The notes beneath the pieces were generated by a model. The model saw only the letters and a list, made by a program, of their open reading frames with translations, ran no database searches and had not been told where the DNA came from. Shown one piece after another: positions 18,370 to 51,080 of a stretch of DNA of 64,000 nt. Both the position numbers and the translations under genes were made by a program. This DNA comes from Tetrapyrgos nigripes. Its lineage: Eukaryota > Basidiomycota > Agaricomycetes > Agaricales > Campanellaceae. The DNA lies in assembly GCA_013368315.1 (NCBI GenBank), contig JAACJM010000167.1:124001-188000 (forward strand). The letters are read 5' to 3'. The stretch's first letter is position 1. The number at the start of each line of letters is the position of its first letter.

Positions 18370-19722
18370 CATGAACCGCAATTCCTCAACTCTGGGGCCT
18401 GTATGACTCTGAGATCCGCTGAGTTGGCTAGGAGGGAGGTAATAACAGAGGCGTTCAAAGGGTATACCTCCGGCCTCTGGATACTCGGTACAAACTCTGT
18501 ACAGGTCTTTTCATATGTATTCTTAATCATCATCCATTCCAAAAAAACGAATCCAGCCTCCTCCTGCCGTCCGTTCTCTCTGAAACTTCGCATACACACT
18601 CTTTTGGTCTCCTCAAGGCTTTCTATCAAGTCTTATAGTGGGAGAAGCACTCCTTTCGAGTCTACACTGTCGAGGACGTCAAGCAGTCGCTTTTTTCTGC
18701 TCCTCCTGTGTTACACAGCCACAAGAACGTGACTTCCATCCAATCACGACGCTTGGATTCTTGCTACAGGCAGTCTCAACACCTCGTCTGCATTCCCTGC
18801 TGCACGTAAGTCGTTTCTTGCTACCTGCACACCCTCCTACACACCCTACACACCCTACATACACTTCTCTCATCCAATACAGATTCCACATGCACTCCAT
18901 AACAAAAAAAAAACTAGGCTCTAACGCCTCCAAGCTCTAACGCTTGAAAAATAAATGAAATAAAAAGAACACACAGACGAACATCATCCTCCTACTAGGC
19001 TCTAATGCCTCTAAGCTCTAATGCTTGCATGCGTCCCTAGAACTGTGCCATATCCCTACTACTTGCTCATTTAGGCTCTAATGCCTCTATTCCCAACAGT
19101 CTCTACCTCCTCCACGAAGAAGCCTATTATGAAACAGACCACACTGTCCTTCAATAAGCAAGCCCCTACTCGCCCTCCTCCACAAAGCAGTTCTCGCAGC
19201 ACTCTTGATCCTTCGGCCCCACCTCAATAAGCAAGCCCCTGCTCGCCCTCTACAAAGTGTGGTTCTCGTGGGACTCTCGATCCCTCGGCCTCTGCCCCTT
19301 CGGCAACCCCACAATGGGCATGATGACGTCTTGCGCAGGTCTCCACCAAAGGACGACTTCTTTACCCTCTAGCTCTTGCTTTACATACTCTCTAGCTCTC
19401 TCACTCTATAATCTCGTACACCTTCTGCCCATACCTCACACACTTTAACATCAGAATGTATACCTTATTTTCTCTTACATCAGGAGCATCAAGAATACAT
19501 TAGCTTCTACTCTGTAATTGTGTACTCTGCTCAATATGCTGGGGGTAACACACACCCCGTTCGACATCTCCAGCTCTACTTCTACTGCTACCTAATGTTT
19601 GACCTCAATCCAATGGCACTCAGTCTTACTTATCGCCATTTACAAAACTAACCATGCCTTGACATCTTTTGCATATGCCATTTCTCAGCCCTCTTTGTAG
19701 GCTCGCACATGCTGTCTTTTAC

Positions 19723-20033
19723 TGGGGCAAAGGGCCATCGCTTCGCGTGGCAAATTACGAGGCCCTTTCATGTGGTCTAATTCAGGTTATGCAGAAGGGA
19801 GGGAGAATCGGTGGAAAGTGAGAGGGAAGAAGGGACTGATTTGACACGCTAGAATGACGTCGTAGTTATTGACGTCAACGGTCCTTGGATCTGGTCTAGA
19901 CTGAGTCTGGACATTCCGGTTGTCGGGAAGGGCAAAGACCGGCTGTGGCAACGAAAAGGGGTGGGAGTTTGAGGTCGTGGTAAAATTTTTGAGGTCGACA
20001 TAAGTTAACTCGGCCTTTAAGAGGCCTCGTAAC
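19723..20033. mobile_element. TTACGAGGCC-family element within repeat copy 1
   Basis: This segment of about 311 bp is absent from the inverted repeat copy, which reads straight through there (CTTTTACAGCTGTGTGG on the minus strand near 42610). It contains GTGGCAAATTACGAGGCCC near the left end and GGCCTCGTAAC at the right end, and shares CATAAGTTAACTCGGCC with 7110-7537. The exact ends and target duplication are not certain. Confidence 0.65.
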
Positions 20034-21016
20034 AGCCGCGTGGTATCCCTGACATGCACCCATTTATACCATACATATAGCCACCAAATCTCTGCCTACC
20101 TGTCACTGCCAGCTAGAACCCTGCCTATATCAACTCTCACCCTTCTCCTGTTTTTCACACACTTGTACATCCTCCTAATCATTTCACACATGAAATCTTG
20201 GTGAATGCACTGACAAAGTAATTAGGGGGTTATTTCAACACGAACTTCAAATCCTGTAACCATCATCACTCCCAACACCCAACAACCTCCACCAGTCCAT
20301 GCCTGCCCTGTATGCCCTGCATGTATTTTGCAATCCTTTCAAACTTGCAATCTAGTCACTTCTATTAATGTTTGATTAAACAACAACCATCCTTACCCAC
20401 CTGGCCGTGCATTCTGACAGGTTCAGGATGAGATCTCTGTCCAAATAATCAGTCATATCCCTGAGCACTGGGCATTGAACTTCTTAGTCCACTTCTGCTA
20501 TACCTTCCTCTCCTCAGAAAAGATCACTATCCATGCTACTGCACATAGCATGCAGATGACCTGCTAAGAACTGTTCTCTTCATATATCAGAAGAGCCTTG
20601 AAAAACATACAGATCTATACACCTATGGTGGGATCATTCTTTGTTTGACGCAGCGCTACATTCCCGCTCGTCTCCATCCACAATCTGCCACAGAGGCCCA
20701 TTTCTGGCATCTCTGTTCATGGAGCTTGCAATTCTGCCACTTCAATATTGTCAAATCACCCTTGCTATGCGCTGCCTTCTGTACATCCTATTGAGAGACC
20801 ATATCCACTGTGCCATTGCATTTCAGTTGTAAACACCACCAATGCTTTATATCCTCCATCCCAAGTCACAAAACTCTGCTTCACATCACTGATCCAATAT
20901 TATTGGCCCTCACTCCATCTTACACCATAAATCTAATATCATCAAATCCATTCTGCCTTGACTCTCACTATGAAGTCAATCTACTCAAAATCAATTTCTT
21001 CTCTTCATCAAGCTAT

Positions 21017-21295
21017 CACTGGGTGCAAACACTTGTAATTCCTTGGATATACAGAGGAATTACACAAGACTTACACTGGTACACTCAATATGTAAGTCCA
21101 CTTGACTTACTGAAGTATTACCAAGGACCACTGTGAGACTTCATGCCTTACAATGGTCATATATAATTGTTCTATTTTTCTTGGTCTCTGGTAATACTTC
21201 AGTAAGTCAAGTGGACTTACATATTGAGTGTACCAGTGTAAGTCTTATGTAATTCCTTTGTATATCCAAGGAATTACAAGTGTTTGCACCCAGTG
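21017..21295. mobile_element. CACTA-type fold-back MITE, 279 bp
   Basis: It begins CACTGGGTGCAAACACTTG and ends with its inverse. The two halves are nearly perfect inverted repeats of about 115 bp each, so a single strand would fold into a long hairpin. It is flanked by TAT on both sides (21014-21016 and 21296-21298). The inverted repeat copy near 41630 has the uninterrupted site AAGCTATCATAATC, which proves the insertion and its 3-bp duplication. No coding capacity. Confidence 0.92.
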
Positions 21296-24079
21296 TATCA
21301 TAATCTGCCATCCCACTATAACTGTCCTTTGCATTACCCTAACTCTACCTTCTTTTCATCCTTCACAATCTACACTCAGAATCAATATCTTTGCTCTACC
21401 TCACTCGCAGCATCATCATAAATTCCACTTCCGGTTACAAGCATTCCCTTCTCTCCAGCCTTGCAACTTGAATCCACATTCAATGTCAATATCTTTAATC
21501 TACCCTGCTTTCACCCCAACCCTGTACTCAGTATTAAAACTCTCTCCTAATACCTTGCATTCTGCACTCAGAATAATATCTTTCTCCACTTCACTCTCAG
21601 CTCACCTCAACCCCGTATTCTATCAAAACAATCTCCTAAGTCCTCGCAATCTGCACTCAAAATCATAACTTCACTCAGAATCACTCTCAGCTCACTCTCA
21701 TATTTCATCAAAGTCTCTCATTTCTAGTGTGGTTTGAGCCATTTAAGTAATCCAGGTTCTATGCCGGACAATCATACACTTGTTCTCCTTCCATCTCAAT
21801 TTTCAGCACATCATCTGATTTAGCTGTGCAAGCTCCTGATCTAATCACCTGCCGTGGGACTACCGTCATGATGTTGACGTGCTCGATTTCATTGGTAAGG
21901 GCTTAGAGTAGACGTAGGCCGTGGCAGGCTATACCGCGTCTACACCCGGCATGTTTGTAGAGGACCATGCCGTGTATTTCTATCTATCTATCTATCTTGA
22001 CATCTGGGCAAAAGCTACGTCATTTTAATGATTTTGATTGCGTAGAGCTCACGGGGACCTTCCATTTTTGTTAGGCTAAGCTCTCCCGTTGCGTCCAATA
22101 CCTGAATCCAGACTGTCAGGCCTCTGCTCAGTTGCATATACCGACTACGGCCTACTCTTTCCATGGAACCTTCTGTTTTGTTACTCGGAACGCTTCTCTT
22201 TGATTTCCATTCGCGCAATCTCAGCTCTCCTTTAGGTAAACACTTGTTCCTTCTTCGATGCTTTCCCAATTTGTGAAGGTAGTTTGGATTTACCCCTACA
22301 ACAAATCTCCTCTTCAGAACTCTACCAATCTCAAGGAAAAAGAGGATTTGTGAAAGCTACTTCCTCAACCGAAAGGATACCGACATGATTGCAAAACCAT
22401 CAAGGTCACTCGAGACAAATTGAATTGGGCAGTCTTGGCGAACGAAATATTGTAGAGGACTTCGATGATTAATGGTTGCATACATATATACATCATGGCA
22501 TAGTCTATCATCACATTTGTAATTTTGTACTGGTATTAGATGAATCTGACCTTCCTTTCCATTCTGACCAGTTGCAAACCTTGGCCCTATCAGAGGTGAT
22601 TTGGTCTGACGAGCCCTGATTCGACATGGCCACTTACCCGGGCAACCTGATCACGCGGTCAGGCCTAATCAGACAATTGCACTTTTTCCGACATATGGGG
22701 AGCATAGGTGAGTTGCGGGAGCCCAGACCATAGAACCGGTACAATCACTACTCACCACGTCGGGAAGCATGCCAAGAGTCATCAGAAGGAGGAGATTGCG
22801 GCACTGAACCATCTCGTCACGGTCGTTGATAACGATGTCCAAGGTTCCTTCATACCCCTCCGGAAGCACGTTCACAGTCCTGATAACGTTCCTGATATCA
22901 CCAGATGCTATACATAACGCTCTAGTCAGAAGAGAATATTCAAAATGAACCACCGACTTACTCGCAAAAGCAAGTGCAAAATTCCGACTGAGGGAGGCTG
23001 CTAGACCCTCGTTTGCTTCCAGATTCAAGATATCGATAGCAGACATAGTACCCCACCTGATGTAGGTGTGAGCGAAAGGAAGAGAAAAGAAAGATGGCCG
23101 CTCACAGGCGTCGATTGATCCCAGAATCCCTTTGCGCAGCTTCTTGATCGTCGTGAATGAACGCTGGGGAGCGTTGTTCTTCAAGCCAACGCGGTCGCCA
23201 GTCCTTTGATCGTAGTCGATATTTGCAGTCTACCACGCATAGAGGGAGGAAAAGTTAATAACATCAACCTGAAATAATGTCCATAACTCACCAAGCTTGT
23301 GTCTTTTCCAGTGCTGAAGCTGGCAAGCTTCTGAGCAGTAGATAACAAGGCGGCATTGGCTACAGGTCTTGGTGGCTTTCTTCAGGCATTGTTGAGAGTT
23401 TGTCACATCGTGATTTGCGCATTCCAGAAATTCGAGGTGGGTGACAATGCGAATGCGGTGTCTGGAAGCCGAGAAGACTTGATCTAGACTGAGACCATGT
23501 TGCTGGGCCAATTCATGGATTCTGGTCAATGTACGACGTTTCTCTTCCTCCTCGACGGTTGACGTGCAGTCAGATCCAGAGCCAGTCATCTGCCTTAAAC
23601 GGGGTTCGTCGGAGAGCTCGATGGCAGCCAAAACGGCAGCGAGTTTTTCTTGATTTTGTGTTTTCAAGGGTGGACTGGAGGTTTTCGACGATGGTATCAT
23701 CAGGCATAGTTGATAGCGACTAGGTGCTGGTGGGAGGGAAAGATGGAAGGGAAGAAAACCCTTATAATCAGCATCGAAACGACGTGGATCGAGATAGGCG
23801 CTCCGAGTTTATACGACACGAGGTCAAGTTGTGGGTGCAGTAAAATAAGATTAAGCTCCAGCAATCATGCCCAGAAGTCATCATGGGTCAGCTGTGGGGC
23901 CGACTGCCTTCGATTGAAGAGCGACTCATTTGAAGAAAAGAACGCAGTTTTAGAACGACATCGATTGCTTCTGGATTCATACATGATAGACTGGAAGAAT
24001 CATACCAGTCGTGCCCCACGATACGTGCTTCTACTAGTACTTGGAACGAAGAGATGAACAGAATATTCTTCACGAAAAA

Positions 24080-40216: not shown

Positions 40217-40990
40217 CCCCCTACTCCAAAAAAAAGAGATGGAGTGATAAAGAGTTGAGGAAAAAAAACTCACCAGCAAGGATGACAAACAAAAATCAGC
40301 AGAGGTGTTGAAAAAAGAAATAAACCTGTAAGCAAAGGCGTGAAGCAGCCATGGTATAGACAAAGAACTTCAAGAAGCAGTGAAGGGGGAGTGAGCGTGA
40401 TATTAGACCACAAAATAGATATAATGCGCACCATCATACCCCTGCAAAGTGGCATAGACACTTGGGGGTTTGAAGTATTCCCAGAACCTAGTAAAAACGA
40501 GTGAGGTGAAAACTAGAATAAAAGAAAGGCATGATGTGCACTGTTGTCCCATGATCCATGCCATCTGACCAGTAAACGGTCTTCCAACATGACGAGACTG
40601 AGAGATTTGGAGAGCTGATGGTATGGACGTGATTTAGTGGCGACAAAGACATCAAAGAAGAGCAGCATGATGGGAAGCAAGAAAGGAAGAATGAAACCCT
40701 TATCATTCCCCACGCTCTATATACAAATAGGACCCACTCCTAATTGCTACTGACGCTACATGAGACACTGCCCGACGTGATCTACGTGTCTCTCCCTCTA
40801 TACGCCGCAGGAGACTGGCGGGGCCTGGGGCCGTTCCGCTAATCCACTTGCTCTCGGATGCTGAAGAGGATGAATACCAGATGATGGTGCAATAGATATT
40901 CCTTCTGATGAGGATTACATAAAATAGGCTTGTTATTTTACATAGAAATTTTCGAGAAATTTTCGATTTTAACCCTTAAATCTAACCCAT
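40217..40990. other. No gene recognised
   Basis: A-rich patches and short minus-strand open frames (40713-40488) without a domain. No supported gene. Confidence 0.4.
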
Positions 40991-43159
40991 CTACTCTAAG
41001 CCCTTACCAATGAAATCGAGCACATCAACATCATGATGGTAGTCGAACGGCAGGTGATTAGATCAGGAGCTTGCACAGCTAAATCAGAATTGTCAAATTG
41101 TGTTTGATGATGTGTTGAAAATTGAGATGGAAGGAGAACAAGTGTACGATTGTCCGGCGTAGAACCTGGATTACTTAAATGGCTCAAACCACACTAGAAA
41201 TGAGAGACTTTGATGAAATATGAGAGTGAGCTGAGAGTGGTTCTGAGTGAAGTTATGATTTCGAGTGCAGATTGCGAGGACTTAGGAGATTGTTTTGATA
41301 GAATACAGGGTTGAGGTGAGCTGAGAGTGAAGTGGAGAAAGATATTATTCTGAGTGCAAAATGCAAGGTATTAGGAGAGAGTTTTAATACTGAGTACAGG
41401 GTTGGGGTGAAAGCAGGGTAGATTAAAGATATTGACATTGAATGTGGATTCAAGCTGCAAGGCTGGAGAGAAGGGAATGCTTGTAATGGGAAGTGGAATT
41501 TGTGATGATGCTGCGAGTGAGGTAGAGCAAAGATATTGATTCTGAGTGTAGATTGTGAAGGATGAAAAGAAGGTAGAGTTAGGGTAATGCAAAGGACAGT
41601 TATAGTGGGATGGCAGATTATGATAGCTTGATGAAGAGAAGAAATTGATTTTGAGTAGATTGACTTCATAGTGAGAGTCAAGGCAGAATGGATTTGATGA
41701 TATTAGATTTATGGTGTAAGATGGAGTGAGGGCCAATAATATTGGATCAGTGATGTGAAGCAGAGTTTTGTGACTTGGGATGGAGGATATAAAGCATTGG
41801 TGGTGTTTACAACTGAAATGCAATGGCACAGTGGATACAGTCTCTCAATAGGATGTACAGAAGGCAGCGCATAGCAAGGGTGATTCGATGATATTGAAGT
41901 GGCAGAATTGCAAGCTCCGTGAACAGAGGTGCCAGAAATGGGCCTCTGTGGCAGATTGTGGATGGAGATGAGCGGGAATGTAGTGCTGTGTCAAACAAAG
42001 AATGATCCTGCCATAGGTGTATAGATCTGTATGTTTTTCAAGACTCTTCTGATATCTGAAGAGAACAGTTCTTAGCAGGTCATCCACATGCTATGTGCAG
42101 TAGCATGGACAGTGATCTTTTCCAAGGAGAGGAAGGTATAGCAGAAGTGGACTAAGAAGCTCAATGCCCAGTGCCCAGGGATATGACTGAGTATTTGGAC
42201 AGAGATCTCATCCTGAACCTGTCAGAATGCATGGCCAGGTGGGTAAGGATGGTTGTTGTTTAATCAAACATTAATAGAAGTGACTAGATTGCAAGTTTGA
42301 AAGGATTGCAAAATACATGCAGGGCATACAGGGCAGGCATGGACTGGTGGAGGTTGTTGGGTGTCGGGAGTGACGATATCATGAAAGATGGTTACAGGAT
42401 TTGAATTTCGTGTTGAAATAACCCCCTAATTACTTTGTTGGTGCATTCACCAAGATTTCATGTGTGAAATGATTAGGAGGATGTACAAGTGCATGAGCAA
42501 CAGGAGAAGGGTGAGAGTTAATATAGGCAGGGTTCCAGCTGGCAGTGACAGGTAGGCAGAGATTTGGTAGCTATATGTGTGGTATAAATGGGTGCATGTC
42601 AGGGATACCACACAGCTGTAAAAGAGAGCATGCACAAGCCTACAAAGAGGGTTGAGAAACGGCATATGCAAAAGATGTCAAGGCATGGTTAGTTTTGTGA
42701 ATGGCAATGAGTAAGACTGAGTGCCATTGGATTGAGGTCAAACATTAGGTAGCAGTAGAAGTAGAGCTGGAGATGTTGAACGGGGTGTGTGTTACTATGG
42801 AAACCCGGAAGGCCTCGCTCGTTAAGCGATTCATTTTTGATTGGCGATGTTTCGGACCCCGAGCACTCTCGAGCACTCTCTGTCCCTGATTTGTGTATTA
42901 ATTTGTATTTATTAAGTATCGAAATCCAAGAGGTTTTTGTGAGGGCGACATTGCTTCAGTCCGAGGCAGTACATTCTCTGCAATAAATACATGACTCACT
43001 GCCTTAGGAATCGACACACAATAAGTCAAGCCACTATCCATGACTGCGTTCGCTGTCTCCGGGTATTCATTACACTTTTCTCACAATATAAGGGTGTTGA
43101 TATACATGTAGCGATTCTAGGAGTCCTCCTCATTTTTTCCATAATGGGGAGGTCATAGA

Positions 43160-43625
43160 AAAAGCTATGGCCAAGAAACAATAGGGATTCAATCGCTGGA
43201 TGACTAACTGACTCCCCAATTTAGAAGGGTGCTTCTTCCGGTGGCGTCGTTTTGAACAGATAGATCTACTACTAAGCTCTGTAGTAGGTACCTTTCATTG
43301 ATTAATATCATAGGGTAGCTAAATACAGAAAATAAAGAGTTGCTAATGAAGAACGAAGGTACAGTAATGAAAATCAGAGGCATCGTCGGTCAATCCTTGG
43401 ATGACTAATGACTAGTACCAATTTGGAAGGGCGGATGTCCCACGCTTCTTCTGGCGTCGTAGGGTGGCTTTCACCCAGCTCTAGCAACAGATGGTTCTAC
43501 TACTAAGCTCTGTAGTAGGTATCTTTGTTTAATTAGTATAAGATGGTAGTTAAATAGAAAAAAATTAAGAGTTGCTGATGGAAAACGAAGGTACAGTAAC
43601 GAGAATCAGAGGTACCATCAGTCTA
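43160..43625. repeat. Tandem duplication of about 230 bp with a hairpin motif
   Basis: Two direct units lie between the left TIR and the kinase stop codon. Each contains CTACTACTAAGCTCTGTAGTAG (positions 43267 and 43497 onward; the outer CTACTA pairs with TAGTAG), then AGTTGCTRATG and GAACGAAGGTACAGTAA. They could be binding sites or a terminator duplicate. Confidence 0.7.
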
Positions 43626-43890
43626 TTGACTGATCTTTTGTCATAGTATAAGCAACCAGATGAAGCGAGAAATGTGCAACTACCTCCTCGATACAAGCTT
43701 GTTGTATCTTTCTTTGCTCTTTGTGATACCAGGAATGATGCCATCTGCACATTTCTTTCAAAGTAAAATAATCCTTCTGGCAAGTGTACACTCGTACGGC
43801 CATAGAATTCGAAATGTGTATATAGAAATTGAAGATATGTACAGGAAATAGAGTGTGGCTATAGGCTAGCAACATCTACCGAGTCTGCAC

Positions 43891-46690
43891 TCACTCATCC
43901 TGAAGCTCATTCTGAAGTGGCTTCAATTCCATCCATGCGCAAAAAGGATTACCCTCACACTGATGATTTAGGGGAAACTTTTCAAACCCGCTCTGAACAT
44001 TTCCATCCCCGAAAAGTGAGGTTTTTGGGTCTAGAGCAGCAGCTTCAGCTCCTTCTCTGAAAATCACCTGTAAGAGTTTACTGGAAATATTCTTAGTATA
44101 CCACCACATACCAAGGATAAGGAAAACTAACGGAGAGGTCATTATTTGCGGGTCAGAAAGCAGTCCACCATAACCTTGGAAATCAGAGACATATGCGCTC
44201 TGATATGTTTTCTCATACTGAAGATGTTGCACTGCTGCTAGGAATAGTGCAGTGTCGTATTCAGGATGCTCGGGAGGAATGGCTGGTAAGGGGCTCGAGT
44301 TATGGATGTATTTGATAAAGTCCTGGCCTGGTGGCAGAGCGATCCGTTCCTCCAGTAAATATGTACGCTTTGGCCCAGCAGTACTTGATCTTGAATGTCT
44401 GATCTCATTGTTCTGCACCATGAACACTGCAGCCTCAACATATCTCAAATTTGGAATAGGGAGGTCAGGGAGACCTGTTAGCATCAAATGATCAGTAAGT
44501 TAAACAATGAGTAAAAGGATAGATACCTTTCTCAAGCTTTTGTCGCTCAATATATGCATATGCAAACTCCATTAAGGCAACGGCATAATAATGAACGTTG
44601 GCTTCAATCATGATTCCGTCAAATTCAACCACTCCGCTATATCTGCCTCGATTGACTCTGACGAAGTGTTAAGAGAATTAGTTTTGTCTTATAGTATAGA
44701 AAAAATAATGCGTACACTTTGCCGTTCTCTCTAAGGCCCTTGTTTTTATAAAGTTCCTTCATCACAACGGAGTTGGCAGTCATTACTTGTTCTGAACAGA
44801 TCAGCTTGGCCGGGTGACAAGTTTTGAAAGCCCCAACGCCAAGTTCTGACTCAAAGCGCAAATCAGCCTGCAAATGTGCGACGGAGGAAAGCACAGCATT
44901 GTCAAATATGAACCTGGTATGAACATTGTCGAGGTTGATGATGTCAAGAAAGGAGACCGTTGGTATGGGAGCAACGAGGCCCTGCATGGTGGTGAGTGAG
45001 CTAATGTCTGAGTGTTGGTCAGAATTCAATCCGCCTGCTATCAAAGCACTAGTGATCCGATTTTCCGTTGGTGAAAGGAATGGTGCTGGAGCTCTTTTGG
45101 CTCGTGGAGGAGTCGTTGGTGTCACACTGGAAGTCTAAAAGTATATGGGCGCTTCAGAGAATATTGATATGGGAAGTAGAAGTGTACATACGCTGCGAGG
45201 TCGTTTGGCAGAGGTACGTGCAGTATCACTGTCATCCCCAATCAAGTCAGTCATTGATACTGAAGAGATAGCAGCGGAAGTCTTGGGGCTAGCTGTATTT
45301 AAAGCTGACGAAGTCGCTGTTGAGGGAATCTACAAACAGATGTGTAAGTATAGAACATTCATAACCATAACTTACATTGAGTACGCACACTTTGTAAACC
45401 TTTTGCCCATGATGAATGAGAAGAGCTCGTGGAAGTGGTATGGATAATTGGTAAGTCCTAGAAAACAATATAAGTCAGTCAGAAATACGGAATAGTAATA
45501 CCAAATAAAATCCCCTCACGTTTGCATGTGCCTGCGCCTCCAATAAAGACTCGTAACGATCCCATTCTTTTGCGGAGATGAGCAAGAGAAGACGAAATGG
45601 TGTTGATGGCCAGTGAAATTTCAGTTGATTGGTTTTCTTATCAGCTTTCATGCACTGAGGTCGAAAGTATGGTGTACGGCGATCTAATGTTGGTCCGTCC
45701 ATGTCAACATTCAGTGACTTGGAGATTTCCCTTAAATTGAATTCATCGAATTTGAAACAGAATCCCATGATTTCAGCTGAGAACTGATTGATTTTGGGCT
45801 TCATGAGGTCCAGAACTGCGTGGCGGACTTCAGGCACAGTAAGATTCACATCAAGGTCTCGAATGGAATCTGAAATCCCCTGTGGATGGTGGTGAGCAGC
45901 ATAACAAGTTTAAGAATGCAGAAATACCAACATTCAACAGTTCATGACCTGTTTTACCTTCAGTAGCATGACCGACAGTGATGTTCACCGCCACAGTCTC
46001 GCCACTAGGTGCATAAGCTTTGGATCGCCACAGATCGGTTTGTGCAGAGTGATGTTGGTGAGCGGGAGAATAACCAGTTGCTCTTGGCCTCGAGACATAT
46101 CCATGCGGTCCACTCAATACTGCAGAACTGCGACTCAGGTTGGGCAGACTGACATAAGGACCTTCAAAAATTAATGAGAAATAATCACAAAAGTAAAAAT
46201 GGATTGATTCTACCTGAATTGCTCATAGGAGTGACATGGCTCATTTCCCGGCTAGCATCTATTAATCGAAGTTAGGTGAGCCGTTCGTTGTAATAAAAAA
46301 TAAGAAATCCTCACTGGCACGTTGAGCTGCATTTACCCTCGATGCTATCATGTCAGGATTTGGAAGTGGTTCAATCATTCCTGAATGAGTGGAAGAGCTG
46401 GTGGAACGACTTCGACTTAAGGTATCTAAATAGAAATAAAAAATGATTGGATAAATGAAAATGTATCGGATAAATAAAAACAATGCACCTTGACGCTGGG
46501 CTACACCCTTGCTATAGTACCTCTTACAGTCCTTGCAGGTCCATTTATCACGGCCAGCAGGATTCTTGAAGTAACCCCATTCATTACCCTTCTTCACAAA
46601 CACTCCACACCGCTCACAGTTGAATGATTCTGGAGCACGATCATCGCTCGTAAAAGCATTGACTTCTTGGGCCGGAGGGAGGGAGGTCAT
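43891..46690 (-). CDS. Alpha-kinase (atypical protein kinase) with N-terminal zinc-binding motif
   Basis: At least eight exons on the minus strand. Early exons 46690-46489, 46425-46315, 46258-46214 and one from 46161 join in frame; later ones span about 45887-45500, 45285-45190, 45125-44720 and 44640 to the TGA before 43891. The N-terminus has two Cys pairs (CERCGVFVKKGNEWGYF, then WTCKDCKRYY), probably a zinc ribbon. The middle is Ser/Pro-rich with an NLS-like SAKRPRS. The C-terminus is an alpha-kinase domain: nucleotide-loop region GVGAFKTCHPAKL, YAVALMEFAYAYIE, YLLEERI, FLAAVQHLQYEKTYQSAYVS, catalytic-type SDFQGYGGLLSDPQIMT, then LFGDGNVQSGFEKF and HQCEGNPFC (GDGN loop plus zinc ligands). 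Alpha-kinases (myosin heavy chain kinase/eEF2 kinase group) phosphorylate Ser/Thr and are numerous in Agaricomycetes. The key residues look present. It lies wholly inside the transposon, so it is cargo or part of its machinery; which one is unknown. Confidence 0.85.
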
Positions 46691-47637
46691 TGAGATCAGA
46701 GGCAGGCAGGTTCAATCGAGGATTGCTAGTAAGGATGATGGATTCCAGAAATAAGCTTCAGGTATTTATACGAGCCATAGTCTTTTCTTAATCTGACAGT
46801 GATTCACTTGATTTTTTGCCACCAGTCAATCGTGTGCGGTAGAAATCTTGTGTTGAGCCTCATGGCATATGGTCCTTTGCAAGTAACCGATGAAATGCTA
46901 TACGGGCATTATACGGACGCAAGTTTTTCAAAGTTTGACCGCTGCAAAAAAAATCCTGGAAATTCTGAACTCAGATCAGACTCAATCGGACACAAGTTTG
47001 ACCGCAAGCAGCCCATGAGATGTTATACGGACGCAAGTTTTTGACGAGACACAAGTTCAACCGCTGAAAATTCCAGACTCAGCACGCCACAAATCCACAA
47101 ATCAGACTCGGATCGGATGCAAGTACAACAACAACAATTTTCAGACTCAGCGCGCCACAAATCCACTATTAGACTCGAACCTATATGACAGGTAAGTTCA
47201 CATCTGGCATGTGGTCCTCTGAAGACAACCGAGGAGCCTCATGTTGATTCTGATATGTGGTCCCCTGCAAGCAACACAAAAACCGTTATACAGGCATTAT
47301 ACGGACGCAAGTTTTTAAGATCTTCACCGCTGAAAAATCCGTTGGAAATTTCGAGTGACAAATACAACGCAAGTTCGACCGTTCAAATGGAGGCCTCAAC
47401 CGCCACACGGGCAACAGAAATGCATATCAAATGCTGCACACTGCCCGCAGCATTGTCTACTAGACTGGAGACTATAAGTACTCCATCCTTGACTTCGAAG
47501 TTATTCATCGAGCCATTGCTGGTCCTCATCTTGTCCTTTTTATTCCTTGCTCAGCTTGAATGGGAAGAAACAAACCTACTCGTACGTGTACACATCTAGA
47601 CATTTCATTGACTGATTGATTACATGCAGCCCCTATT
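46691..47637. promoter_or_regulatory. Divergent intergenic region with repeated ACGGACGCAAGTTTTT motif
   Basis: Between the two divergent genes the word ATACGGACGCAAGTTTTT occurs near 46911, 47025 and 47300, with looser relatives (GGACACAAGTTTGACCG, GATGCAAGTACAAC) and repeated GACCGCTG, CGCCACAAATCCAC and ATGTGGTCC words. The layout suggests shared promoter or protein-binding sites. The start codon of the integrase gene probably lies toward the right end but I could not fix it. Confidence 0.6.
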
Positions 47638-49458
47638 GAACTCATCGAACCCAGCATTCGAAAGTACTGGGATCGAGGTTTCAGTGACGTGAAGATTTTG
47701 GCATATCTTTATGAAGACAAACTTTTTGATACAGAACAATATGGAATTGCGTCAGTCATTATTCAAAGCTTGTAAAATCCTCGTACGAAAAGCTGATATG
47801 AGTCTACCAGGATTAAGAAACTCCGCCAAATACGTACAAGCTTGGGGCTATACCGATCACGCTCTTCTAGTCTGCATGCCTTTACATTCACAATTTGATA
47901 TCTACTAACCAGTGCTTTCAGATTTACAAGTCGAAGATATTATAGAAGACATGATATCACTACGTAAATACTATCCTGTGGCCGGCGCAAGAGGTATCAA
48001 GAGGATTTTCCACCATGATCTGAAGAAGGAAGTGAAGAGGCAAGTTTTCTGATCTATGTCACTATCAATCAAGATTAACAACGTATGACACACAGATCAG
48101 TTATCGAGGAATACTTCTGTCGCTATGAGCCAGATTTGGTGAGGGCACGTCGAAGAAGAAGACTCAAGCGTCGGAGATTTTGGGCAGCTGGCGTCAATGA
48201 CATGCTTTGCGTTGACCAGCATGATAAGCTCAAGAAATATGGTCTAGCTTTGCATACAGGTATCAACTTGTTTCTAATTATTGTATGCTTATGAATTTAT
48301 TCTGCAATGCAGGAATTGATCCTTTCTCTGGCAAAATAAAGTGGATGAAGGTCTGGCATAACAACTCCAATCCACGGCTGATCTTTAGGTATTACCTTGA
48401 TACTATCAAGAAGGATGGATGTGAGGTGCACTAACAAATAAATATCTTCTCTCTTTCTGATGGAATATTTTACAGACACATCTCTTGTAACTCAAAGCGA
48501 CCCAGGCACCGAGAACTTTCACTTGGCTAAGGGACATTCATACATCCGCCAGTGCCTGGACCCCCAATTGATCAGTACTTTACAGCATCGTTTCATGCGG
48601 GAGAAAAGCAATATTCCTCCCGAGATTACCTGGTCAAATTTACGCCGCAATTTCATGCCAGGCTTTGAGAACATTTTATCAAGTGCCTCTGTGCAATATG
48701 ACCCCCACCATCCTCTCCAGTAGTGAGCATTTCCTTTACTGATCACACTTGATCTGTCTCTCATATCCTTAATCCTAGCAATGTATTCAAATGGGTTTTC
48801 ATTCCATGGCTACAACTCGAAATTGATGCTTATGTTCACCAGGTCAACAACTCACTGAAACGTGCTCAGAAGCACAAGATTCTCCCTCATGGGCCTCCAG
48901 ATGACATTGATGAACATCCTGAGCGCTACAATTCACTCAACTTCAAAGTAAGCAACAGCATATACTCTAAATTTCATTTGCTTGTATACTTATTATATCA
49001 CTATTTATTGACAGATTGTGATTAATGCTGACGCTGATTATATCCACGACGCTGAGAAACTTTATGCTCCTCCTGATCATCCCGTTTTTGATCTTGTGCC
49101 ATCAGAGTTCAATCATTGGGCTTCTGTGTATTATGAGCAACTTGGATCTCCCGCTGTAACAAGGGACAATGTGTGGAATGTTTATGAGGATTTATTGGCT
49201 ATGTTTGAAGTGGACCCTGCCATATTTGAGACAATGGGTCTTTCAGGCTATGGTGACAATGCCTGGGCGCCTAGGCCTCCACTTCCAGAAGATGCATCTG
49301 AGCCTATTCTCGATGATCTCTTACCTTTACATCATGATTCAGAAGGTGGCTATATGGGTGGTGTGAGAGGTGGTCTGGGAGCTGATATTGAAGATGGTGA
49401 TTTGGTCGATGGCATTGTTGATTTCACATCTGACGAAGCACAGTCAGATGAAGAGTAA
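47638..49458 (+). CDS. Integrase-core (DDE) transposase-like protein
   Basis: A multi-exon gene whose joined exons match the basidiomycete integrase-core protein family. An N-terminal helical, HTH-like part reads IELIEPSIRKYWDRGF, then TRIKKLRQIRTSLGLYRSR and VEDIIEDMISLRKYYP, then a basic stretch RARRRRRLKRRRFW. The catalytic core has VNDMLCVDQHDKLKKYG (first Asp), GIDPFSGKIKWMKVWHNNSN, LVTQSDPGTENFHLAKGH (second Asp and a Glu), LQHRFMREKSNIPPE, and FIPWLQLEIDAYV. The C-terminus is acidic and Gly-rich, ending SDEAQSDEE. One intron appears to use a GC donor (AG|GCAAGT near 48040). The first coding exon and the splice near 47752-47810 are uncertain, so the start given is the first confident exon. 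It likely catalyses movement of the 42796-49805 element. Confidence 0.8.
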
Positions 49459-49779
49459 AACAAACTACAATCTATTTACAAATCATATCTTCTCTCAGTC
49501 TATGTACCAGCATGTAAAATCTCGTAAAATCTATCAAAGTCTCCAGTCCTTTGAGCACTTTGAACGCATCCATATACAGTTCAAAAAATGCAGCTGATTT
49601 GAAGCCTGAGAACGAGGTGAGATACCCATACACGATGCTCGCAATATCTCCAGTCTTTTGAATAACAGCTTACATACTTACATAACTCTCTATACACCGA
49701 AGTGTCTGGGGTCTGATTTCCATATCGGAGGTGCCGTATTGCTGGCATGATCGCTTATGGTCTGCGAGGCTCTCCGGAG
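49459..49779. other. 3' flank of the integrase gene up to the right TIR
   Basis: No coding sequence. Holds the likely polyadenylation region and subterminal DNA of the transposon. Confidence 0.5.
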
Positions 49780-51080
49780 CGAGCGAGGCCTTCCGGGTTT
49801 CCATATGTTACCCCCAGCATATTGAGCAGAGTACACAATTACAGAGTAGAAGCTAATGTATTATTGATGCTCCTGATGTAAGAGAAAATAAGGTATACAT
49901 TCTGATGTTAAAGTGTGTGAGGTATGGGCAGAAGGTGTACAAGATTATAGAGTGAGAGAGCTAGAGAGTATGTAAAGCAAGAGCTAGAGGGTAAAGAAGT
50001 CGTCCTTCAGTGGAGACCTGTGCAAGACATTGTCATGCCCGTCGTGGGGTCACCAAAGAGGTGGAGGCTGAGGGATTGAGAGTCCCATAAGAACTGCGCT
50101 TTGTAGAGGGTGAGCAGGGGCTTGCTTATTGAGGTGGGGCTGAAGGATCGAGAGTGCTGTGAGAACTGCTTTGTGGAGGAGGGCAAGTAGGGGCTTGCTT
50201 ATTGAAGGACAGTGTGGTCTGTTTCATAATAGGCTTCTTCATGGAGGAGGTAGAGACTGTTGGGAATAGAGGTGTTAGAGCCTAAATGAGCGAGTAGTAG
50301 GGATATGGCACAGTTCTAGGGACACATGCAAGCATTAGAGCTTAGAGGCGTTAGAGCCTAGTGGGAGGACGATGTTCATCTGTGTGTTCTTTTTATTTCA
50401 TTTATTTTTCAAGTGTTAGAGCTTGGAGGCGTTAGAGCCTAGTTTTTTTTTTTGTTATGGAGTGCATGTGGAATGTGTGTGCATTGGATGAGAGAAGTGT
50501 ATGTAGGGTGTGTAGGGTGTGTAGGAGGGTGTGCAGGTAGCAAGAAACGACTTACATGCAGCAGGGAATGCAGACGAGGTGTTGAGACTGCCTGTAGCAA
50601 GAATCCAAGTGTCGTGATTGGATGGAAGTCACGTTCTTGTGGCTGTGTAATGTGGGAGGAGCAGCAAAAAGTGACTGCTTGACGTCCTCAACAGTGTAGA
50701 CTCGAAAGGAGTGCTTTTCCCGCTATAAGACTTGATAGAAAGCCTTGAGGAGAACAAAAGAGTGTATATGCAAAGTTTCAGAGAGAACGGACGGCAGGAG
50801 GAGGCTGGATTCATTTTTTTGGAATGGATGATGATGGTCGATATAATGCTCAGAGGCGTAATCATGTCCAGAAGTCATCATGGGTCACCTGTGGGGCCAA
50901 CTGCCTTCAATTGAAGAGCGACTCATTTGAAGAAAAGAAGGAAGTTTTAGAACGACATCGATCGCTTCTGGATTCATACATGATTTACCTGAAGAATCAT
51001 ATCAGTCGTGCCCTGGTACTTGGACCGACGGGATAAACAGAATATTCTTCACGAAAAATCAAAACCCATACGCATCCACT

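Follow-up and report, generated by a model that had tools for sequence, protein, structure and literature searches.

The closest described systems are fungal transposons of the IS3EU superfamily. According to the available part of the report by Kojima (2025, PMC12730594), in all families of TET-carrying IS3EU a TET/JBP gene is flanked by a transposase gene and an alpha-kinase gene of opposite orientation, and elements from rusts that have TAYGG..CCRTA ends and 6-bp duplications were classed as IS3EU; that part gives no function for the kinase, the word "kinase" occurring twice in the main text. IS3EU/GingerRoot elements were characterized, in the accessible part of an earlier paper, by TA..TA termini, usually 6-bp duplications and the absence of an HHCC domain (Kojima 2023, PMC10045372). 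As regards the kinases, the portions available of three further papers describe the alpha-kinase family as highly expanded in rusts (Microbotryum genome, PMC4469406), list PF02816 in a domain table with significance values (wheat-rust comparison, PMC5295586), and report one alpha-kinase domain among the fungi studied (2010 kinome survey, PMC2838846). Among open-access articles combining alpha-kinase and transposase, judged by the title and the start of the abstract, only Kojima 2025 dealt with fungal transposons. A search of the open-access literature for a transposon-encoded kinase yielded none. No transposon is known to us whose movement is regulated by a protein kinase that it encodes itself.

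The window, i.e., the whole analyzed stretch of 64,000 nucleotides of Tetrapyrgos nigripes DNA, contained at positions 42796–49805 a complete DNA transposon of 7010 bp with two intact divergent genes. The element was bounded by a left terminal inverted repeat (TIR) of 26 bp starting with TATGG (42796–42821, plus strand) and a right TIR of 26 bp (49780–49805, minus strand), which were complementary at 26/26 positions, and was flanked by copies of the target site duplication TGTTAC at 42790–42795 and 49806–49811, of which the empty site has a single copy. At up to three mismatches, the TIR was found within the window only at the two element ends (0 of 100 shuffles), and 61 matches were found across the 98-Mb genome, versus none for the reversed control pattern. 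The flanks joined with one TGTTAC aligned across the junction (approximately 19545–19550) to an inverted paralogous sequence (19722–18526, minus strand; 94% over 1202 columns); therefore, the empty site is real. Thus, the perfect TIRs, the TGTTAC duplication, the empty site near 19551 and the location of both genes inside the element, all of which had been noticed in the original prediction, were confirmed. It should be noted that the surrounding DNA forms a long inverted duplication (18526–21912 and 40990–50835), whose main arms are 94–98% identical and approximately 19–32 kb apart, with the transposon present in one arm and missing from the other. The left subterminal region (43255–43626) carried a repeated block of 66–78 nt with a hairpin-like motif, CTACTACTAAGCTCTGTAGTAG, in copies approximately 83% identical and 231–232 bp apart.

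The TATGG..CCATA ends, conforming to TAYGG..CCRTA (TA..TA), together with the 6-bp duplications, fit assignment of the element to the IS3EU superfamily, as does the integrase-type DDE transposase without an HHCC N-terminal domain. Identical 6-bp flanks were found in 8 of the 12 elements having both ends (C163, C20, C58, C160, C65, C5, C109 and C86), the exceptions being C154 (7 bp), C142 (5/6 matching), and C243 and C51 (no duplication). With regard to a position of the transposase in the IS3EU/GingerRoot clade, adjacent to IS481EU, the NCBIfam IS481 profile matched the transposase relative P0018 weakly (3.9e-05, 23.3 bits, below the cut-off of 224) and gave no match with another relative, P0019.

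The minus-strand gene (43891–46690; 10 exons) encodes a 760-aa protein, which was identified as an alpha-kinase from the gene model, Pfam, the fold of the database model P0001 and conserved residues. At the N-terminus of the protein, which is of a Zn-binding type and may bind zinc, two CxxC pairs start at residues 25 and 52; a middle region, an NLS-like KRPRS motif and an alpha-kinase domain at residues ~430–760 follow. The Pfam Alpha_kinase profile (PF02816) scored 44.2 bits against a cut-off of 21.3 and was matched by 13/13 sequences in the kinase alignment. P0001 had an alpha-kinase fold, and the D/Q/D/N columns, which we take to be catalytic, and the H..HxC..C columns, presumably the Zn set, were matched; the fold and both sets are shared with MHCK-A, eEF2K and TRPM7 (ChaK). 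The domain looks active, and the product is probably a nuclear protein with putative kinase activity. Both gene models were built manually from splice signals and reading frames; P0001, which represents the C20 copy, agreed with our model in outline, but placed the borders of two introns differently and departed from it at individual residues of that copy.

The plus-strand gene (47560–49458; 9 exons, one intron having GC-AG borders) encodes a 483-aa DDE transposase recognized from the gene model, Pfam (rva_4 integrase core, 38.7 bits, cut-off 26), conservation and the fold of a relative, with D147, D206 and E247 as candidate catalytic residues. The kinase and integrase identities originally proposed for the two genes are thereby upheld. 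The C-terminus of the transposase (window ~49400–49455) is an acidic tail containing a motif of the type F-S-D/E-E; it recurs in P0017–P0019 and P0075 and is a possible phosphorylation or contact site. The two genes are separated by 869 bp (46691–47559), presumed to be a two-way promoter. Between them, at 46867–47337, TTATACGGACGCAAGTTTTT occurred three times without mismatch, along with related CAAGTT repeats, and GGACGCAAGTT sites at up to one mismatch numbered four in the intergenic region, whereas 100 Markov shuffles averaged 0.06. These repeats could be binding sites; they were not found in the six other elements scanned.

Six full-length copies of this subfamily were near-identical (8–33 substitutions per pair), and a seventh young copy, C401, was cut by a contig end. 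All six carried both genes; the kinase was intact in five and both genes in four, C154 having a frameshift in the kinase and C243 having lost a transposase splice acceptor. Since four of the six are intact in both genes, the role of the kinase is directly testable. Departures from the column majority amounted to 67 substitutions; 53 were C:G to T:A, 43 of them at CpG, which suggests that the young copies are CpG-methylated and decaying. The copies C243:104931–111940 and C154:105117–112122 had a common right flank and different left flanks, a pattern that may reflect an assembly join, a rearrangement or recombination between copies.

The DNA of a second subfamily (C142, C300, C3, C65 and C5) was approximately 70% identical to that of the window's subfamily. 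The kinase was kept in four of these five copies, the exception being C5, which had lost the kinase core and whose transposase frame showed stops, so that its transposase appears broken. Copies with the same TIRs as the window element therefore did not consistently lack the kinase, the finding that the original prediction had named as speaking against it. A third subfamily was represented by C86 (C86:322448–330163) and C89 (L061, L074), with TIRs TATGGAAAGCAGG / TATGGAAAGCAGGAAGGGCCCGCTCA; here all that was left of the kinase was its N-terminal part, interrupted by a stop, and roughly the final 42 residues of the domain. The 99.8% identity of the two loci and the perfect duplication GTAGTC flanking C86 show that their movement was recent and that the kinase had been deleted beforehand. 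With one frameshift and one stop, the transposase of C86 was broken as well, so C86 probably moved in trans. The simplest reading is that the kinase-deleted copies C5 and C86 were mobilized by help in trans. The loss of the kinase core from C5 and C86/C89 means that the kinase is dispensable in cis for some moves, and a kinase-less autonomous lineage may exist, the state of the transposase among kinase-less loci, which also include C6, C205, C41, C44, C63, C249 and C341, having been seen in C86 and C5. Two further structures were recorded: a 3-kb element with a GGTTAC duplication, to which neither gene matched (C109:170096–173160), and a TIR-bounded remnant with kinase sequence only and no duplication (C51:301408–304074).

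Between the first two subfamilies, pN/pS was 0.19–0.22 for the kinase domain, 0.15–0.28 for the transposase core and 0.37–0.43 for the middle region of the kinase protein; since dS was near saturation (about 2 or more), these ratios are approximate, yet their order is clear. Among C142, C300 and C3, the values rose to 0.50–0.68 for the kinase domain and 0.57–0.80 for the transposase core. These copies look decayed: their kinase frame contained 2–3 stops away from splice junctions, versus none in the window, and some stops are common to several copies and could therefore date back further or reflect a different intron structure. The low ratios between subfamilies and the higher ones among decayed copies indicate that the kinase was selected during spread and released upon decay. 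The best reading is that the kinase is a working part of the element, and the cargo role offered as one option in the original prediction is disfavored.

The PF02816 profile gave 38 exon-level matches in the genome. At least 14 of them had a listed integrase locus no more than 10 kb away, a zone that covers 2.1% of the genome (32 loci plus at least 72 among the matches listed, entered by hand). For two of the 14, C434 and C23, the integrases 6–7 kb away were of another type, and the proximity may be due to chance; at C99, a TIR was found beside the kinase match. The remaining 24 matches were more than 10 kb from any listed integrase locus. Six of eight other alpha-kinase loci (L001–L008) matched the element-kinase profile at E 0.018 or worse, with L006 and L007 matching in part; therefore, many of the remaining alpha-kinases are of other types. 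Conversely, a PF02816 match was absent from the 10-kb surroundings of 20 of the 32 transposase-family loci, including C401, which is cut by a contig end. Thus, the suggestion that such elements explain the alpha-kinase expansion is supported in part for this genome: the matches near integrases and the remark on rust expansion in the available text of PMC4469406 are in its favor, and the 24 distant matches are against it.

A second, diverged kinase/integrase pair was observed at C139:199800–206800 (L073) and C151:146648–152978, 99% identical to each other; it is oriented tail-to-tail, in contrast to the head-to-head arrangement in the window element, and no terminal repeats were found around it in the 7 kb of C139 read. 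Outside Tetrapyrgos, at least 2 of 10 kinase relatives had an integrase relative, among 120 of 392 integrase matches listed, on a contig of equal length and thus probably on the same contig; these were in Marasmius sp. AFHP31, with consecutive tags, and Laccaria bicolor. The enclosure of a kinase and an integrase by one pair of TIRs, first proposed for the window element, thus recurs in other copies and in another subfamily, and the pairing extends to other species. In trees of seven tips each, Laccaria grouped with C139 (support 0.97 for the kinase and 0.70 for the transposase) with Marasmius beside them, so that the two trees agree on the outer branches; they differ weakly among T. nigripes copies, the transposase tree joining the window element and C65 at 0.35. 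The recurrence of the pair and the placement of Laccaria, C139 and Marasmius suggest that the association is old.

We consider it probable that the element, an IS3EU-type transposon that looks autonomous and was recently active, has in the alpha-kinase a conserved component that helps its propagation. The integrase-like DDE transposase would act on the TATGG ends and insert the element with a 6-bp stagger, and the divergent second gene would supply the putative nuclear protein, with its Zn-binding-type N-terminus and active-looking alpha-kinase domain. The kinase is under constraint and is inherited together with the transposase, in a TIR-bounded element with intact genes and traces of movement; its target and the direction of its effect are assigned here conditionally. 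The most likely route would be phosphorylation of the transposase or its end complex, or of a nuclear host factor limiting transposition, and most weight is given to these two.

The main rival, which we regard as possible and rather unlikely, is counter-silencing: by acting on chromatin or the DNA-methylation machinery of the host, the kinase would allow expression of the element, as has been proposed for transposon TET/JBP genes. The CpG substitutions of the young copies suggest methylation and decay, and a TET gene sits between transposase and kinase in the TET-carrying IS3EU presented in the available part of PMC12730594; however, CpG mutation of the copies is visible despite the kinase. 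It is improbable that the kinase phosphorylates the transposase to dampen transposition and control copy number, since successful copies should then often lose the inhibitor, and the kinase is strongly constrained and retained intact by nearly all young copies; nevertheless, one repeat-bearing intergenic region common to the divergent genes would permit coupled control, and kinase-deleted copies that moved do exist. Still less credible is a captured host alpha-kinase gene of no use to the element: capture of host-type genes by fungal DNA transposons is documented (TET/JBP; PMC12730594, available part), but constraint on the kinase between subfamilies is similar to that on the transposase core and relaxed among decayed copies, the outer branches of the two trees are congruent, and the pair recurs in other genera. 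That a host kinase gene merely adjoins an insertion is already refuted, because both genes are enclosed by the same pair of TIRs, the insertion has a duplication and an empty site, and six near-identical copies are present on different contigs; no point in its support was found.

Only tentatively can the preferred reading of a propagation-helping kinase be extended to the alpha-kinase being an ancestral second component of fungal IS3EU, the transposon's own kinase controlling the transposition complex. Were this so, a good part of the mushroom and rust alpha-kinase expansions would be transposon genes rather than host signaling. It is likely that some of the expansion in these groups consists of IS3EU genes, and the number of alpha-kinases in a fungal kinome may in part reflect its transposons. 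A kinase acting on the transposase would constitute a self-contained phospho-switch for DNA transposition, and one acting on the host a new kind of counter-defense.

Comparison with the known systems, each as described in the available part of its source, places the window element close to the TET-carrying IS3EU of rusts and Tuber, which likewise have transposase and alpha-kinase genes of opposite orientation, and the rust IS3EU families share with it the 6-bp duplications and TAYGG..CCRTA termini (PMC12730594). Unlike these, in which TIRs exceed 30 bp in rusts and a TET/JBP gene is situated between the genes in rust and Tuber hosts, the window element has 26-bp TIRs, no TET/JBP gene and an Agaricales host. 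In the T. nigripes genome, Tet_JBP had two matches (C284 and C404), one above the cut-off and none on contigs with the elements; as the window element lacks TET, its kinase is independent of a TET gene. With IS3EU/GingerRoot, the element has in common the TA..TA ends, 6-bp duplications and an HHCC-less integrase-type transposase, whereas the available text of that description mentions kinase 0 times (PMC10045372). Kyakuja, Dileera, Zisupton and other TET-carrying fungal transposons likewise have an additional enzyme gene presumed to benefit the transposon, but differ from the window element in transposase superfamily and in the enzyme. Thus, the transposase/alpha-kinase pairing, not recognized from the literature in the original prediction, is already in print for TET-carrying IS3EU (Kojima 2025, PMC12730594), and the window element is a TET-less mushroom member; new are the presence of the kinase in 6/6 full-length young copies, its transposase-like constraint, the agreement of the two trees on the outer branches and the proximity of some alpha-kinases to integrases.
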